NCBI RefSeq assembly: GCF_011039135.1
Contig: NZ_JAAKEJ010000003.1
Span: forward strand, 186,001-250,000
Length of the DNA: 64,000 nucleotides
Reading direction: 5' to 3'
Source: Desulfovibrio sp. ZJ209
Lineage (GTDB): Bacteria; Desulfobacterota; Desulfovibrionia; Desulfovibrionales; Desulfovibrionaceae
Shown here: one piece after another, positions 4,988-14,277 of the stretch
Position numbering within the stretch: the stretch's first letter is position 1
How the letters are laid out: each line of letters begins with the position of its first letter
Program-made: the position numbers and the translations under genes
The notes under the pieces: generated by a model
What the model was told of the DNA's origin: nothing
What the model saw: the letters and a program-made list of their open reading frames with translations, nothing else
Databases searched by the model: none

Positions 4988-6070
4988 ATGTACCGCAACG
5001 CCAAGAACGTGGGCTATTATATGATTGGCGACGGCGCCCTCGCCCAGCTTCAGGACATCCTCGCCCCGCGCCGCGAGGCCATGCGGGGCGCCCCGGCCGT
5101 CTGGTTCCTCGACCATTATTTCGAGAACACCAATTTCCGCGAGCAGCTCCCCATCCGGGAATGGGACGAGGTGGTCTATGTGGACACCACGGAGGAGCCC
5201 ACCACGGACAGCGTGGACGGCTACACCGACCGCGTGAAGGCCTTTCTCGCCGGGCGCAAGCCCTGCGCCCTTCTGGCCTTCGGCGGCGGCTCCACCATGG
5301 ACACCTGCAAGTGCGTGGGCAATTTGCTCACCAATCCGGGCAAGGCCGCGGACTACCAGGGCTGGGAGCTCGTGAAGAACCCCGCGCCCTACAAGGTGGC
5401 CGTGCCCACCATCTCGGGCACCGGCTCCGAGACCTCGCGCACGGGCATCATCTGCAACGAGGAGAAAAACCTGAAGCTCGGCATGAACAGCGACTACACC
5501 ATGTTCGACCAGGTGCTCCTCGACCCGCGCCTCACGGCCACGGTGCCCCGCAACCAGTATTTTTACACCGGCATCGACACCTTCATGCACTGCTTCGAGA
5601 GCCTGGACGGCGCCTATCGCAACACCGTGGTGGATTCGCTCTCCGAGAAAGCCATCGACCTCTGCAAGCGCGTCTTCCTCTCCGAAGACATGATGAGCGA
5701 CCATAACCGCGAGCTTCTGATGATCGCCTCCTATCTCGGCGGCATGGCCGCGGGCTTCGTGGGCGTGGTGCATCCGCTTTCGGCCGGCCTCAGCATGGTT
5801 TTGCACATGCACCACGGCATCGCCAACTGCTACGCGCTCTCGGTTTTGGAAGACATCTATCCCGAGCCGTACAAGGTGTTCCGCGAGATGATGGCCCGGC
5901 AGAAGATCGACCTGCCCACGGGCATCTGCAAGAACCTCACGGACGAGCAGTACAATGCCCTCTATGAGGCGAGCATCGTCCACGAAAAGCCGCTCATCAA
6001 CAAGCTCGGGCCCAGGTACCGCGAGATACTCACGCGCGAGAACGTCATCGAGCGCTTCAAGCGCATGTAG
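4988..6070 (+). CDS. kdnB: KdnB-like iron-containing alcohol dehydrogenase (Kdo 8-oxidase)
   Basis: Protein of 360 residues of the iron-containing alcohol dehydrogenase fold. Seen: nucleotide-binding FGGGSTMDTCK near residue 97, PTISGTGSETSRTG near 140, a metal-site segment YTGIDTFMHCFES near 195 and HMHHGIANC near 280. The overall pattern, including MLTNPG-like/YQGW and ASY(L/F)GGM segments, matches what I remember of Shewanella KdnB, which oxidises the 8-hydroxyl of Kdo to an aldehyde for Kdo8N synthesis. The start ATG at 4988 follows AAGGAGAG. The aminotransferase that should use the product follows after 30 bp. A related sugar substrate other than Kdo is possible, since the operon's nucleotidyltransferase is unusual. 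Confidence 0.8.
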   Translation: MYRNAKNVGYYMIGDGALAQLQDILAPRREAMRGAPAVWFLDHYFENTNFREQLPIREWDEVVYVDTTEEPTTDSVDGYTDRVKAFLAGRKPCALLAFGGGSTMDTCKCVGNLLTNPGKAADYQGWELVKNPAPYKVAVPTISGTGSETSRTGIICNEEKNLKLGMNSDYTMFDQVLLDPRLTATVPRNQYFYTGIDTFMHCFESLDGAYRNTVVDSLSEKAIDLCKRVFLSEDMMSDHNRELLMIASYLGGMAAGFVGVVHPLSAGLSMVLHMHHGIANCYALSVLEDIYPEPYKVFREMMARQKIDLPTGICKNLTDEQYNALYEASIVHEKPLINKLGPRYREILTRENVIERFKRM

Positions 6071-6100
6071 CCGCAGGTCGCCGCGGCACGGAGAACTGCC

Positions 6101-7288
6101 ATGGATCTCAAGATCAATTTCAGCGGCCGCGCCATCCGCTACACCGAGGACGAGATCGCGGCCGTGGTGGAGGCCATGCGCCATGCCGACCCCCTGACCC
6201 AGGGGCACTACATGCGCGAGTTCGAGGCGGCCTTCGCCCGTTACCAGGGTGTCGCCGAGGGCACCTGCTTCACCACCATGAACGGCTGCGCGGCGCTGGA
6301 GATGTCGGCCCAGCTCTGCCGTTTCAAGCCCGGGGACGAGGTGGTCATCCCCTCGCACACCTTTACGGCCTCGGCCTATCCCTACCTGAAAAAGGGCGCC
6401 ACGCCCGCCTGGGCGGACATCGACCCGCTCACCCGCGTGGTCACGGCAGAGACCATCGAGAAGGCGCTCACCCCGCGCACCAAGGCCGTGGTGGTGGTGC
6501 ACCTCTACGGCTATGTGGCCGACATGCCGGCCATCATGGCCCTCTGCCGCGAGCGCGGCCTCATCTGCATCGAGGACGCGGCCCAGGCCATCGGCGCGGA
6601 GGTGGCCGGCCAAAAGGCGGGCAGCTTCGGCGACATGGCCATTTTCTCCTTCCATTCCCACAAGAACCTCACCACCCTGGGCGAAGGCGGCATGCTCTAT
6701 GTGGCCGACCCCGAAGCCTGCGCCATCGTGCCGGCCCTGCGCCACAACGGGCACTGCGCGTACCCCTTCGAGCGGCCGGACTACTGGAAGCCGGCCATGG
6801 GCAATGTGGACATCCCCACCCTCGGGGACGACCTGCTCATGCCCAACAACTATTGTCTCGGCGAAGTGGAATGCGCGCTCGGCATCCAGCTTTTGAAGCG
6901 CATCGACGCCATCAACGACGAAAAGCGGGCCCGCGCCCTGCGCTTCATCGACGGCCTCGCGGACTTCCCTGAGCTCCAGTTCCACCGCGTGGAGACGCGG
7001 CGCCACAATTACCACCTGCTCGTGGCGCGCATGACCAAGGGCCCGGAGGCGCGCGACCGCTTCATCCGCGCCATGCACGACGAAAAGGGCGTGAAATGCG
7101 TGGTGCAGTACATCCCGCTCGACAGGTATGACTTTTACCGCCGTCTGGGCTTCGGCGAGGCCAACTGCCCCGAGGCCGACACCTTCTTCGACACCATGGT
7201 CTCCTTCCCCTTCCAGCACTGGATGAGCGACGCCGAGCTCGACTACATGCTGGCCTCTGCCCGGGAAGTGCTCGCGGCCTTGGACTGA
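6101..7288 (+). CDS. kdnA: KdnA-like PLP-dependent sugar aminotransferase (DegT/DnrJ/EryC1 family)
   Basis: Protein of 395 residues, typical length for the DegT/DnrJ/EryC1/StrS family. The PLP lysine lies in FHSHKNLTTLGEGG near residue 188; IEDAAQAIGAE near 160 supplies the cofactor-ring Asp. In Shewanella, KdnA transfers an amino group to 8-oxo-Kdo made by KdnB to give 8-amino-3,8-dideoxy-octulosonate, and the adjacency here with the same gene order of functions supports that role. The start ATG at 6101 has a weak purine site (CACGGAGA). It is followed after 18 bp by the fused nucleotidyltransferase gene. Specificity for Kdo rather than another keto/aldehyde sugar is inferred from context. 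Confidence 0.8.
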   Translation: MDLKINFSGRAIRYTEDEIAAVVEAMRHADPLTQGHYMREFEAAFARYQGVAEGTCFTTMNGCAALEMSAQLCRFKPGDEVVIPSHTFTASAYPYLKKGATPAWADIDPLTRVVTAETIEKALTPRTKAVVVVHLYGYVADMPAIMALCRERGLICIEDAAQAIGAEVAGQKAGSFGDMAIFSFHSHKNLTTLGEGGMLYVADPEACAIVPALRHNGHCAYPFERPDYWKPAMGNVDIPTLGDDLLMPNNYCLGEVECALGIQLLKRIDAINDEKRARALRFIDGLADFPELQFHRVETRRHNYHLLVARMTKGPEARDRFIRAMHDEKGVKCVVQYIPLDRYDFYRRLGFGEANCPEADTFFDTMVSFPFQHWMSDAELDYMLASAREVLAALD

Positions 7289-7306
7289 GCGGCCGGATGA
7301 CGCGGC

Positions 7307-8953
7307 ATGAAAGAGCGCTGCATCGTCATCCCGGCCATCAAGAAGAACGCGGTCATCCCCGATCAGCTCGTGAAGAGGCTGGCCGGGGTGACGCTCATGG
7401 AGCGGGCCATCAACACGGCGCGGGCCTGCGCGCCCGGCGAGGACATCATTGTCCTCACCGACAGCCAGGAAATCTCGCTCATCTGCGAGCGCGCGGGCGT
7501 GCGCCACGCATGGAACCGCGACCTGCGTTTCAAAAGCCTCGACATCGTGGCCGAGATGCGCGGCCTGCTCGAAGGGCTCGCCCGCGAGTACGAGCATTGC
7601 CTCATCCTGCGCGCCTCCTGCCCCCTCCTCACTTGGGTGGACATGGAGGACACGTGGCGGCGCTACCGCGAGGCCGGGGCGGACAGCCTCGTCACCGTGC
7701 GCGGCGTGCGCCAGCGCATCTGGCGCGAGCACGGGGACTCCATGGAGAGCCTCATCGAGGGCGCGGGCGGCGAGGACGGCGGGAAAAGCTACCTCGTGGA
7801 GAGCCGCGCGCTCATCATCATGAGGCTCGCGCTGTTGCGCGGCGCGGGCGAGGCCGTGGTGCCGGCGCAGCCCGGCCGCGTCATCCCCTACTTCCTCGAC
7901 GAGCGGGCCATCGAGATCCAGAACTACCAGGACTGGTGGATCTGCGAGCGCCTGCTGGAGCGCCGGCACGTGGTCTTCGTGGTGGCCGGCTACCCGGCCA
8001 TCGGCATGGGGCATATCTTCCGCGCGCTCATGCTGGCGCACGAGATCACGAGCCACAAGATCACCTTTGTCTGCACGCGCGAGAGCGAGCTCGCCGTGGA
8101 GAGCGTGGCCCGCAAGGATTACCGCGTGGTGCGTCAGGGCGGGGAAGACCTCGCCGACACGGTGCTCGCCTTGCGGCCCGACCTCGTGGTCAACGACATC
8201 CTCGACACCAAGGCCGCCTATATGGAGCGCCTGGCCGCAGGCGGCGTGCGCTGCGTGAACTTTGAGGACGAGGGGCCGGGCGCGGCGCTGGCCGACCTTG
8301 TCATCAACGCCCTCTATGAGAGCAGCGAAAGCACGGAGCGCGTGCGCTGCGGGCCCGACTATTTCTGCCTGCGCGACGAATTCCTCAATGCCCGGCGCAA
8401 CCCGCTGAGGCCCGGGGTGCGCACGGTGCTTCTGACCTTCGGCGGAACGGACCATGACGACGTCACGCGCCGCGTGCTCGACATCATCGAGCCCATCTGC
8501 CGCGCCTACGGCATCGCCATCCGCGTGGTGGCCGGCCCGGGCTACGCCCACAAGGAAAAGATGGAAGCCCATGTGCGGCAGCTGGAAAACCCGTTGCTCG
8601 AATTCACCTGGGCCACCAACGTCATGAGCCGGATGATGGAGGGCGCGGACCTCGCCATCTGCTCGGCCGGCCGCACGGTCTACGAGCTCGCGCATATGCG
8701 CGTGCCCGGCATGGTGCTCGCCCACCACGAGCGCGAGGCGCGGCATACCTTCGCCCGGCCTCGCAACGGCTTCGCCTTCGCGGGTGTGCTCTCCAGGGTG
8801 GGCGACACGCGCATCCGCAATGTGTTTCTCGCCCTGCTCAAGCAGGAGCGGCGCGCCCGCTACTGGGAGCGGCAAAACCGGCTCGACTTCACGGCCAACA
8901 AGGCGCGCGTGGTGGGCCTCATGGAAGACCAGCTGGAAAAGGAGGGCGCATGA
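7307..8953 (+). CDS. Cytidylyltransferase / PseG-like bifunctional fusion protein
   Basis: Protein of 548 residues with two domains. Residues 1 to about 220 look like a NeuA/PseF-type cytidylyltransferase: IPAIKKNAVIPDQLVKRLAG at the N-terminus corresponds to the nucleotide loop, with LILRASCPLLT further on. Residues about 225-530 look like the GT-B fold hydrolase PseG: GMGHIFRALML at about 238 is the G-x-G-H-x-x-R motif, followed by FGGTDHDD and a late ICSAGRTVYELA segment. PseG removes UDP from a diamino-trideoxy sugar in pseudaminate synthesis and PseF activates the acid with CMP. Finding both fused beside KdnB/KdnA is odd: a pure Kdo8N pathway needs only the CMP transferase. The gene overlaps the next one by ATGA. 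Confidence 0.8.
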   Translation: MKERCIVIPAIKKNAVIPDQLVKRLAGVTLMERAINTARACAPGEDIIVLTDSQEISLICERAGVRHAWNRDLRFKSLDIVAEMRGLLEGLAREYEHCLILRASCPLLTWVDMEDTWRRYREAGADSLVTVRGVRQRIWREHGDSMESLIEGAGGEDGGKSYLVESRALIIMRLALLRGAGEAVVPAQPGRVIPYFLDERAIEIQNYQDWWICERLLERRHVVFVVAGYPAIGMGHIFRALMLAHEITSHKITFVCTRESELAVESVARKDYRVVRQGGEDLADTVLALRPDLVVNDILDTKAAYMERLAAGGVRCVNFEDEGPGAALADLVINALYESSESTERVRCGPDYFCLRDEFLNARRNPLRPGVRTVLLTFGGTDHDDVTRRVLDIIEPICRAYGIAIRVVAGPGYAHKEKMEAHVRQLENPLLEFTWATNVMSRMMEGADLAICSAGRTVYELAHMRVPGMVLAHHEREARHTFARPRNGFAFAGVLSRVGDTRIRNVFLALLKQERRARYWERQNRLDFTANKARVVGLMEDQLEKEGA

Positions 8954-9684
8954 GCGCAAGCGCGGCCGCAACGGGAGGCCCAAGGCAGGGAGTCAAGGTG
9001 GTGGCCATCGTGCAGGCGAGGCTCGGCTCGAGCCGGCTGCCGCTGAAATCCCTGCTCACCTTGCGCGGAACGCCGATCATCGACTGGGTGACGCAGCGCC
9101 TTTCCCGGGCGCGGCGGCTGGACGGGCTTATCGTGGCCGTGCCGGATACAAAGCTCGACCGCGTGCTCTACGAGCACCTTGAACGCCTGGGCGTGCCGGT
9201 CATGGCCGGCCCGGAAGAAGATGTGCTCGCCCGCTTCACGCAAGCCGCCAAGCAGGCGGACGCCGGCCTCGTGGTGCGCGTCTGCGCCGACAATCCCTGC
9301 ATCTGGGGCGAGGCCGTGGACCGGCTGGTGGAGTTTTACCGCAAGGGCGGCTGCGAGTACGCCTATAACCACATCCCGCGCGGCAACCTGTGGCCCGACG
9401 GGCTGGGGGCCGAGATCCTGTCGCGCGAGTTGCTGGACGAGCTGGACAGCCGGGCGAAGCTCCCCTCCCAGCGCGAGCATTGCCTGAACTACATCTGGGA
9501 CAATGCCGGAAGCTACCGCATTGCGACCTTCGATCCCGAGGAACCGTGGCTGCGCCGCCCGGACCTCAAGCTGGACGTGGACAGCGCGGAGGATTTTCGG
9601 CGGCTGGCGCTCCTGCCGCTTTCGCCTGCCATGGACGCGCGGGAGATCATTGACGCGTGCGACGGGGAGCAGGGCGCAGTTTAA
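8950..9684 (+). CDS. SpsF-like nucleotidyltransferase (spore-coat polysaccharide protein F family)
   Basis: Protein of 244 residues starting with a short variable tail, then VVAIVQARLGSSRLPLKSL, the nucleotide-binding loop of the SpsF/cytidylyltransferase family. Also seen: AVPDTKLDR, ADNPCIWGE and a C-terminal LKLDVDSAEDFR stretch common to this family. The family is thought to transfer CMP to sugar acids, or to act in glycosylation loci with NeuB-like genes. The ATG overlaps the stop of the preceding gene (ATGA), so translation is probably coupled. As the fourth gene of the operon it gives the locus two putative CMP-transferases, which suggests two different sugars or that one has diverged. 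Confidence 0.82.
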   Translation: MSASAAATGGPRQGVKVVAIVQARLGSSRLPLKSLLTLRGTPIIDWVTQRLSRARRLDGLIVAVPDTKLDRVLYEHLERLGVPVMAGPEEDVLARFTQAAKQADAGLVVRVCADNPCIWGEAVDRLVEFYRKGGCEYAYNHIPRGNLWPDGLGAEILSRELLDELDSRAKLPSQREHCLNYIWDNAGSYRIATFDPEEPWLRRPDLKLDVDSAEDFRRLALLPLSPAMDAREIIDACDGEQGAV

Positions 9685-9727: not shown

Positions 9728-10043
9728 TTCCTTAAGTCCGTCTGGAGCGAAGCGGAAGACGGGTGCTGGTGCCGGAAGAATCCTAAAAAATAAGATTTTT
9801 CGCTGCTGGCAAGGAAGACAAAAATTTCCGAAGGGAGTGTACTTAAGTACTCGACCGAGGAAATTTTTTTCTGACGCAGCCAGCAGCGAAGCGCTAGCCG
9901 TTGGCGAGTCTGCGAGCCTTACGGAGAGCGACAGCGGTTCCGTTGACTGGCTGCTGCGATAACTAACTGCTGTCTTCATCCGTAGCTTCCTTCGTCGCAA
10001 CGGCTGAAGCAAGGCTGTTTTTGACGGATAATTTCGGCATTAC
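9728..10043 (+). repeat. Dispersed structured repeat, copy 1 (316 bp)
   Basis: Non-coding. The sequence recurs in inverted orientation at 14082-14277 with high identity, except that 9891-10010 (120 bp) is absent from copy 2. It can fold into a long hairpin: outer arms TTCGCTGCTGGC at 9799-9810 and GCCAGCAGCGAA at 9879-9890, inner arms AAATTTCC at 9822-9829 and GGAAATTT at 9859-9866, and a central palindrome GTACTTAAGTAC at 9839-9850. The extra 120 bp has its own arms, AGCCGTT at 9896 and AACGGCT at 9999. No open frame of note lies inside. It fills most of the gap between the SpsF-like gene and the phosphodiesterase. Confidence 0.85.
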
Positions 10044-14081: not shown

Positions 14082-14277
14082 GTAACGCCGAAATTATCCG
14101 TCAAAAACAGCCTTTTCGGCGCTGGCCGCGTCAGAGAAAAATTTCCTCGGTCGAGTACTGAAGTACACTCCCTTCGGAAATTTTTATCTTCCTTGCCAGC
14201 CCCGAAAAATCTTATTTTTTAGGATTCTTCCGGCACCAGCACCCGTCTTCCGCTTCGCTCCAGACGGAATGAAGGAA
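14082..14277 (-). repeat. Dispersed structured repeat, copy 2 (196 bp, inverted relative to copy 1)
   Basis: Inverted copy of the element at 9728-10043, lacking the 120-bp internal segment. The hairpin is kept: outer arms TTCGGCGCTGGC at 14115-14126 and GCCAGCCCCGAA at 14195-14206 pair at 11 of 12 positions. Relative to copy 1, one outer base pair has changed on both sides (C-G to G-C), while the neighbouring pair has become a mismatch. Inner arms AAATTTCC/GGAAATTT are unchanged and the central palindrome differs by one base in its loop. It fills the gap after the Dabb gene. Confidence 0.85.

Follow-up and report, generated by a model that had tools for sequence, protein, structure and literature searches.

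Sialic-type acids, a class of surface sugars, influence recognition, phage adsorption and contact with the host, and the pathways that make them are deduced from gene content. Among the described systems closest to the locus presented here are the sps genes of Bacillus subtilis and the KdnA/KdnB pair of Shewanella oneidensis, which acts in the synthesis of 8-amino-3,8-dideoxy-manno-octulosonic acid (Kdo8N). The sps set, comprising an aminotransferase (SpsC), a hydrolase (SpsG), a synthase (SpsE) and SpsF, makes legionaminic acid (PMC7439481). KdnB oxidises a terminal CH2OH and is the sole characterised enzyme of the FeADH3 group (PMC5125639). The stretch analysed here, 64,000 nucleotides of Desulfovibrio sp. 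ZJ209 (hereafter, the window; C3:186001-250000 in a genome of 2.70 Mb that is 99.96% complete), contains four genes for a KdnB-like iron-containing alcohol dehydrogenase (gene 1, 4988-6070), a DegT/DnrJ/EryC1 aminotransferase (gene 2, 6101-7288), a fusion protein (gene 3, 7307-8953) and an SpsF-like cytidylyltransferase (gene 4, 8950-9684). All four lie on the + strand, with gaps of 30 nt and 18 nt followed by a 4-nt overlap, in an operon-like layout for which the coordinates and gene order of the original prediction were exact. The operon probably encodes most of a pathway to a cytidine monophosphate (CMP)-activated nonulosonic acid (NulO), in which the dehydrogenase and aminotransferase would replace the pair of 4,6-dehydratase and aminotransferase customary in legionaminic and pseudaminic acid pathways. 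There is good support for assigning the genes to a NulO pathway; where the amine sits is something that we infer.

Gene 1 (360 aa) matches S. oneidensis KdnB (PDB code: 5k8c) with 300 bits, compared with 84 bits for the next family, which bears out its earlier description as KdnB-like. In a tree of 51 sequences it falls within a clade of 26 from NulO-type clusters (support 100/100), apart from 20 KdnB sequences that include the S. oneidensis enzyme and are mostly encoded beside KdnA in Desulfobacterota; these Kdo8N KdnB sequences are themselves not resolved as a single clade. Identity between gene 1 and the Kdo8N-linked sequences is 42-47%. Alignment of the 26 NulO-type and 20 Kdo8N-type sequences indicates that the predicted metal ligands D197, H201, H262 and H276 (codons within 5576-5815, + strand) and the cofactor glycines GGG99-101 are kept in both groups. 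Consistent differences from the Kdo8N type to the NulO type include C198T, A263P and Y266A, which adjoin the ligands and give T198, P263 and A266 in the window, as well as W336L. On the strength of these clade-specific substitutions, the substrate of the NulO-clade enzyme may have changed relative to that of Kdo8N KdnB. In one same-genus genome (G146), the counterparts of genes 1 and 2 are separated by an extra gene of 288 aa and no known function (L043:10133-10999).

The aminotransferase (395 aa; Pfam PF01041, 288 bits) had been taken as KdnA-like, and this part of the original prediction does not hold. Perosamine synthetase is its closest match in the PDB (155 bits), and among NCBIfam models PseC ranks first (229 bits, under the cut-off of 423.5); both outscore KdnA (5k8b), at 120 bits, and the assignment of gene 2 as KdnA was rejected. 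A true KdnA from a different Desulfobacterota genome (L099), where its gene adjoins that of a Kdo8N-type KdnB, scores 567 bits against 5k8b. Gene 2 shares 26-31% identity with 13 KdnA sequences, compared with 54-68% with its counterparts from this cluster in other phyla, and a tree restricted to these two groups splits them with support of 100/100.

Gene 3 (548 aa) encodes a bifunctional-looking fusion of NeuA-fold and PseG-fold domains, recognised from hidden Markov model (HMM) matches, a structure model and invariant columns. The HMM matches are weak, with 118 bits to PseG (TIGR03590; cut-off 153.55) and 29 bits to PseF. An AlphaFold model was built from 25 homologues (pLDDT 88), and Foldseek likens its predicted N-terminal domain (7307-7960, + strand) to the CMP-NulO synthetases PpNeuA (9t4z; TMt 0.74) and 1eyr (0.75), and the remainder (7964-8950, + strand) to PseG from C. 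jejuni (3hbm; TMt 0.76). A GxGH motif (residues 233-236) is invariant in the PseG part among the homologues; with the modelled fold, it makes this domain a good candidate for the nucleoside diphosphate (NDP)-sugar hydrolase of a NulO pathway, at an HMM score under the equivalog cut-off. In the NeuA-fold domain the nucleotide loop, canonically IPARGGSxxIPRKN, is remodelled to IPAIKKNAVIPDQLVKR. Across phyla, nearly all full-length homologues have the form IPA[IV]KKNxxxPDxLxKK, and the loop is altered in every full-length cluster case examined in the motif table. In the six g20 genomes (G056, G078, G095, G107, G119 and G131) only the PseG part is matched, and in the two g20 loci inspected (L051 and L052) gene 3 directly follows the aminotransferase, with no space for the N-terminal domain. 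A more distant relative, G132, also has this fusion, and its loop is of the canonical form. Because the loop is altered and the domain is absent in some relatives, the NeuA-fold domain is probably not the CMP transferase; the predicted cytidylyltransferase-PseG fusion is thus confirmed in its two folds, and its first half is judged unlikely to work as a transferase. Since the altered loop is strongly conserved, the domain has probably taken on a new role and not merely degenerated.

The CMP transferase of the pathway is instead likely to be gene 4 (244 aa; PF02348, 78 bits), which was correctly recognised as SpsF-like and retains its catalytic motifs QARLGSSRLPLK, RVCADNP and LDVDSAED. The general forms of these motifs (QARxGSxRLPxK, RVCADNP and LDxDxxxD) are kept in nearly all SpsF copies. 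The proposed role agrees with that of SpsF as putative cytidylyltransferase of the B. subtilis legionaminic acid pathway (PMC7439481).

The synthase that such a pathway would use is encoded elsewhere. The window genome has a single NeuB gene (C2:93454-94515), followed by a gene for a LIC12162-family transferase (343 bits, cut-off 225). The role of the latter is named from the NCBIfam model only, a fold search on a structure model of low confidence having matched GT-B enzymes only weakly. In other Desulfovibrionaceae genera, NeuB directly follows SpsF (L046, L048, L049 and L053), and the LIC12162 gene comes next in the first three of these loci. Among 149 genomes of the family, gene 3 is found in 29 and a matching NeuB (at least 66% identity) in 25, and all 25 of the NeuB genomes carry gene 3 (Fisher p 1.5e-24, a value that overstates the case as it is uncorrected for relatedness). 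The absence of any exception to this rule is telling despite the kinship of the genomes. Gene 3 occurs without a matching NeuB in four genomes: the distant G132 and three whose assemblies are incomplete (86-92%). The nearest PDB match of NeuB is the legionaminic acid synthase SpsE of B. subtilis, and the protein is nearer to the SpsE/NnaB type than to PseI. A KRPxxG motif, which contacts the N-acetyl group in the Neisseria enzyme, is present in 21 of 21 copies. A NeuB-family synthase, unlinked in the window genome and linked in relatives, is therefore part of the same conserved set; this agrees with the earlier suggestion of a different nonulosonic sugar, and a standalone four-gene pathway was rejected.

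Conservation of the set was followed through gene 3, for which a scan of about 85,000 GTDB species genomes gave 114 relatives, of which 80 were kept. Most are from Desulfovibrionaceae and have the order KdnB, aminotransferase, gene 3, SpsF. The full set with NeuB at the end, or before SpsF, is found in Bacteroidota, Desulfarculus, Omnitrophota, Sulfuricurvum, Burkholderiales and Crocinitomicaceae. Chlorobiaceae and Sulfurimonas have four of the five genes. The recurrence of the same order across phyla, which the original prediction had proposed to look for, rules out chance adjacency. The conserved set reaches at least six bacterial phyla, with Campylobacterota and Chlorobiota represented besides Desulfobacterota, Bacteroidota, Omnitrophota and the Burkholderiales, and would represent a pathway that has apparently never been studied; the open-access literature returned no paper that connects KdnB to nonulosonic acids or deals with 9-amino members of that class. 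In plasmid searches KdnB was unmatched and the PseG matches were distant only.

Some loci depart from the common arrangement. In L171 (7623-8780) the place of KdnB ahead of an orthologous aminotransferase is taken by an iron alcohol dehydrogenase of a non-KdnB subfamily, assigned by eye, in what looks like a non-orthologous replacement. In a Riflebacteria metagenome-assembled genome (L173:8621-9949) a class III aminotransferase-like protein, also assigned by eye, precedes the fusion gene in the usual place of KdnB and the DegT enzyme. These single cases give a hint that what the pathway needs as its input is an oxidation and an amination. Three kinds of protein turn up repeatedly downstream of the NulO genes in four loci outside Desulfovibrio (L166, L174, L175 and L178), namely a PF13480 GNAT protein, a DUF4910 protein and a radical SAM/SPASM protein; they are possible tailoring enzymes.

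From homology, the pathway may be sketched as follows, with observations of gene content, conservation, phylogeny, co-occurrence and motif state behind it. The KdnB-like dehydrogenase would oxidise a primary alcohol, with C6 of an NDP-2-acetamido-hexose as the likeliest site, and the DegT aminotransferase would convert the aldehyde to an amine, for a net change of CH2OH to CH2NH2. The PseG-like domain would then remove the nucleotide, and NeuB would condense the free amino-hexose with phosphoenolpyruvate, so that hexose C6 becomes C9 of the NulO. SpsF would form the CMP-sugar, which the LIC12162-family transferase encoded beside NeuB would probably add to a surface glycan. Alternatively, oxidation could follow NeuB, at C9 of the finished acid. 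By analogy with KdnB, the product would be a C9-amino NulO, with a C7-amino compound less likely. We tentatively propose a widespread pathway to a 9-amino-9-deoxy NulO, using the oxidation and transamination chemistry of Kdo8N on a hexosamine and with the fused NeuA-fold domain repurposed for a new nucleotide-binding role; the proposal in this full form is possible, and we would hold it with rather less than even confidence. To our knowledge, 9-amino-9-deoxy nonulosonic acids are known only as synthetic compounds.

Several points weigh against this proposal. Enzymes of the DegT type represented by gene 2 usually aminate C4 keto sugars, and the C6/C9 position is based only on the known action of KdnB at a primary alcohol. 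WecB was not found in the window genome, a difficulty for the supply of a manno-configured precursor. NeuB lies away from the operon in the window genus, and the loci were gathered via gene 3, so that their content is conditional on it.

The C4 preference of such aminotransferases accords with two other readings. The product could be an ordinary di-N-acyl NulO (legionaminic or pseudaminic acid), with amination at C4 of a 4-keto-6-deoxy sugar supplied by an unlinked dehydratase and with KdnB as an accessory. PseC is indeed the closest NCBIfam model to the aminotransferase, PseG- and SpsE-type enzymes work in such pathways (PMC7439481), and a short-chain dehydrogenase/reductase (SDR) in the HpaI-KdsB locus described below reaches 73 bits to LegB (cut-off 475). 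However, neither a UDP-/GDP-N-acetylglucosamine 4,6-dehydratase nor a PseH-type N-acetyltransferase is conserved across the collected clusters, and the PF13480 GNAT occurs in the four loci above; the window genome has no strong Polysacc_synt_2 (PF02719) dehydratase, the best match scoring 50 bits; and KdnB stands immediately before the aminotransferase in nearly all loci. We regard this reading as unlikely. Oxidation of the secondary alcohol at C4 of an NDP-hexosamine without dehydration, leading to a 7-amino NulO with a C9 hydroxyl, would dispense with the dehydratase and retain the usual site of PseC-like aminotransferases, but C4 oxidation by an iron alcohol dehydrogenase would be new, and KdnB, the only precedent in its group, acts on a terminal CH2OH (PMC5125639); this makes it distinctly improbable.

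The locus had originally been described as a Kdo8N-like operon with extra functions, and a pathway to Kdo8N, or to another 8-amino octulosonic acid, with accessory nucleotide-sugar enzymes might be envisaged from the KdnB homology of gene 1. Phylogeny, which had been named as the means of refuting that description, goes against it fully for the aminotransferase, which lies outside KdnA, and in part for the oxidase, which forms a sister clade to Kdo8N KdnB. KdsA, the synthase for 3-deoxy-manno-octulosonic acid (Kdo) 8-phosphate, was not found in the window genome or in any of nine genomes of the genus and is present in 112 of the 149 family genomes; the Kdo transferase WaaA was likewise not found in these nine and is present in all four KdsA-positive genomes tested. 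These absences are strong evidence that KdnB does not act on Kdo here, unless Kdo arises by another route, for example via an HpaI aldolase. One KdsB is kept in all nine genus genomes (82-87% identity to the window genome copy, which adjoins an HpaI aldolase and the SDR), which suggests that these genomes make a different ulosonic acid or reach Kdo through an aldolase. HpaI and KdsB also follow the NulO genes in L156, L162, L171 and L176, as do KdsB, SDR and HpaI in L046, and this proximity speaks for the Kdo8N reading. Genuine kdnA-kdnB(-kdsB) operons in other Desulfobacterota, however, have no PseG, SpsF or NeuB homologues. The Kdo8N operon was rejected, and a Kdo8N-type product is highly improbable.

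Two further observations concern these Kdo-related genes. The cluster at L042:4038-8069 comprises an HpaI aldolase, an SDR, KdsB, a hexapeptide acetyltransferase and a HAD phosphatase. Kdo8N-type kdnA-kdnB pairs occur well beyond Shewanella, in several Desulfobacterota families (L086, L089-L093, L095, L096, L098-L100 and L104), and kdsB adjoins the pair in L086, L091 and L104.

The genes flanking the four-gene operon on either side include none from the conserved set. An identical 28-nt sequence is found in two intergenic regions of the window, at 9774-9801 (+) and 14204-14231 (-), within a longer similar stretch that recurs near L042 8304-8636; together they look like an interspersed repeat.

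The five-gene set, which many gut Desulfovibrio genomes carry and which extends to other phyla, would today be misread as a Kdo 8-oxidase plus assorted parts. If the NulO proposal is true, the set would open a new way into nonulosonic acids and probably yield a new monosaccharide, the FeADH3/KdnB group would gain a second function, and an annotation would be corrected. That a genus has no canonical Kdo genes bears on the acidic sugars of its lipopolysaccharide, a matter answered both ways in the literature, in which reports on Kdo in D. desulfuricans lipopolysaccharide conflict (PMC3354558).

In comparison to the B. subtilis sps set (SpsM, SpsC, SpsD, SpsG, SpsE and SpsF), the genes described here have in common the DegT aminotransferase, the PseG-like hydrolase, the SpsE-type NeuB and SpsF; an SpsM dehydratase and an SpsD acetyltransferase are not among the conserved genes, a KdnB-like dehydrogenase is found instead, and the SpsG homologue is fused to a NeuA-fold domain. 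The pseudaminic acid pathway of Campylobacter and Helicobacter (PseB, PseC, PseH, PseG, PseI and PseF) shares the roles of aminotransferase, PseG, synthase and CMP transferase, but here PseB and PseH are not among the conserved genes, the CMP transferase is of the SpsF type and the synthase is not closest to PseI. With KdnA/KdnB of S. oneidensis, the locus shares a KdnB homologue directly before a DegT aminotransferase and the logic of oxidation plus transamination; it differs in having a separate oxidase clade, an unrelated aminotransferase subfamily and NeuB in place of KdsA/KdsB, in a genus from which the canonical Kdo genes are absent.

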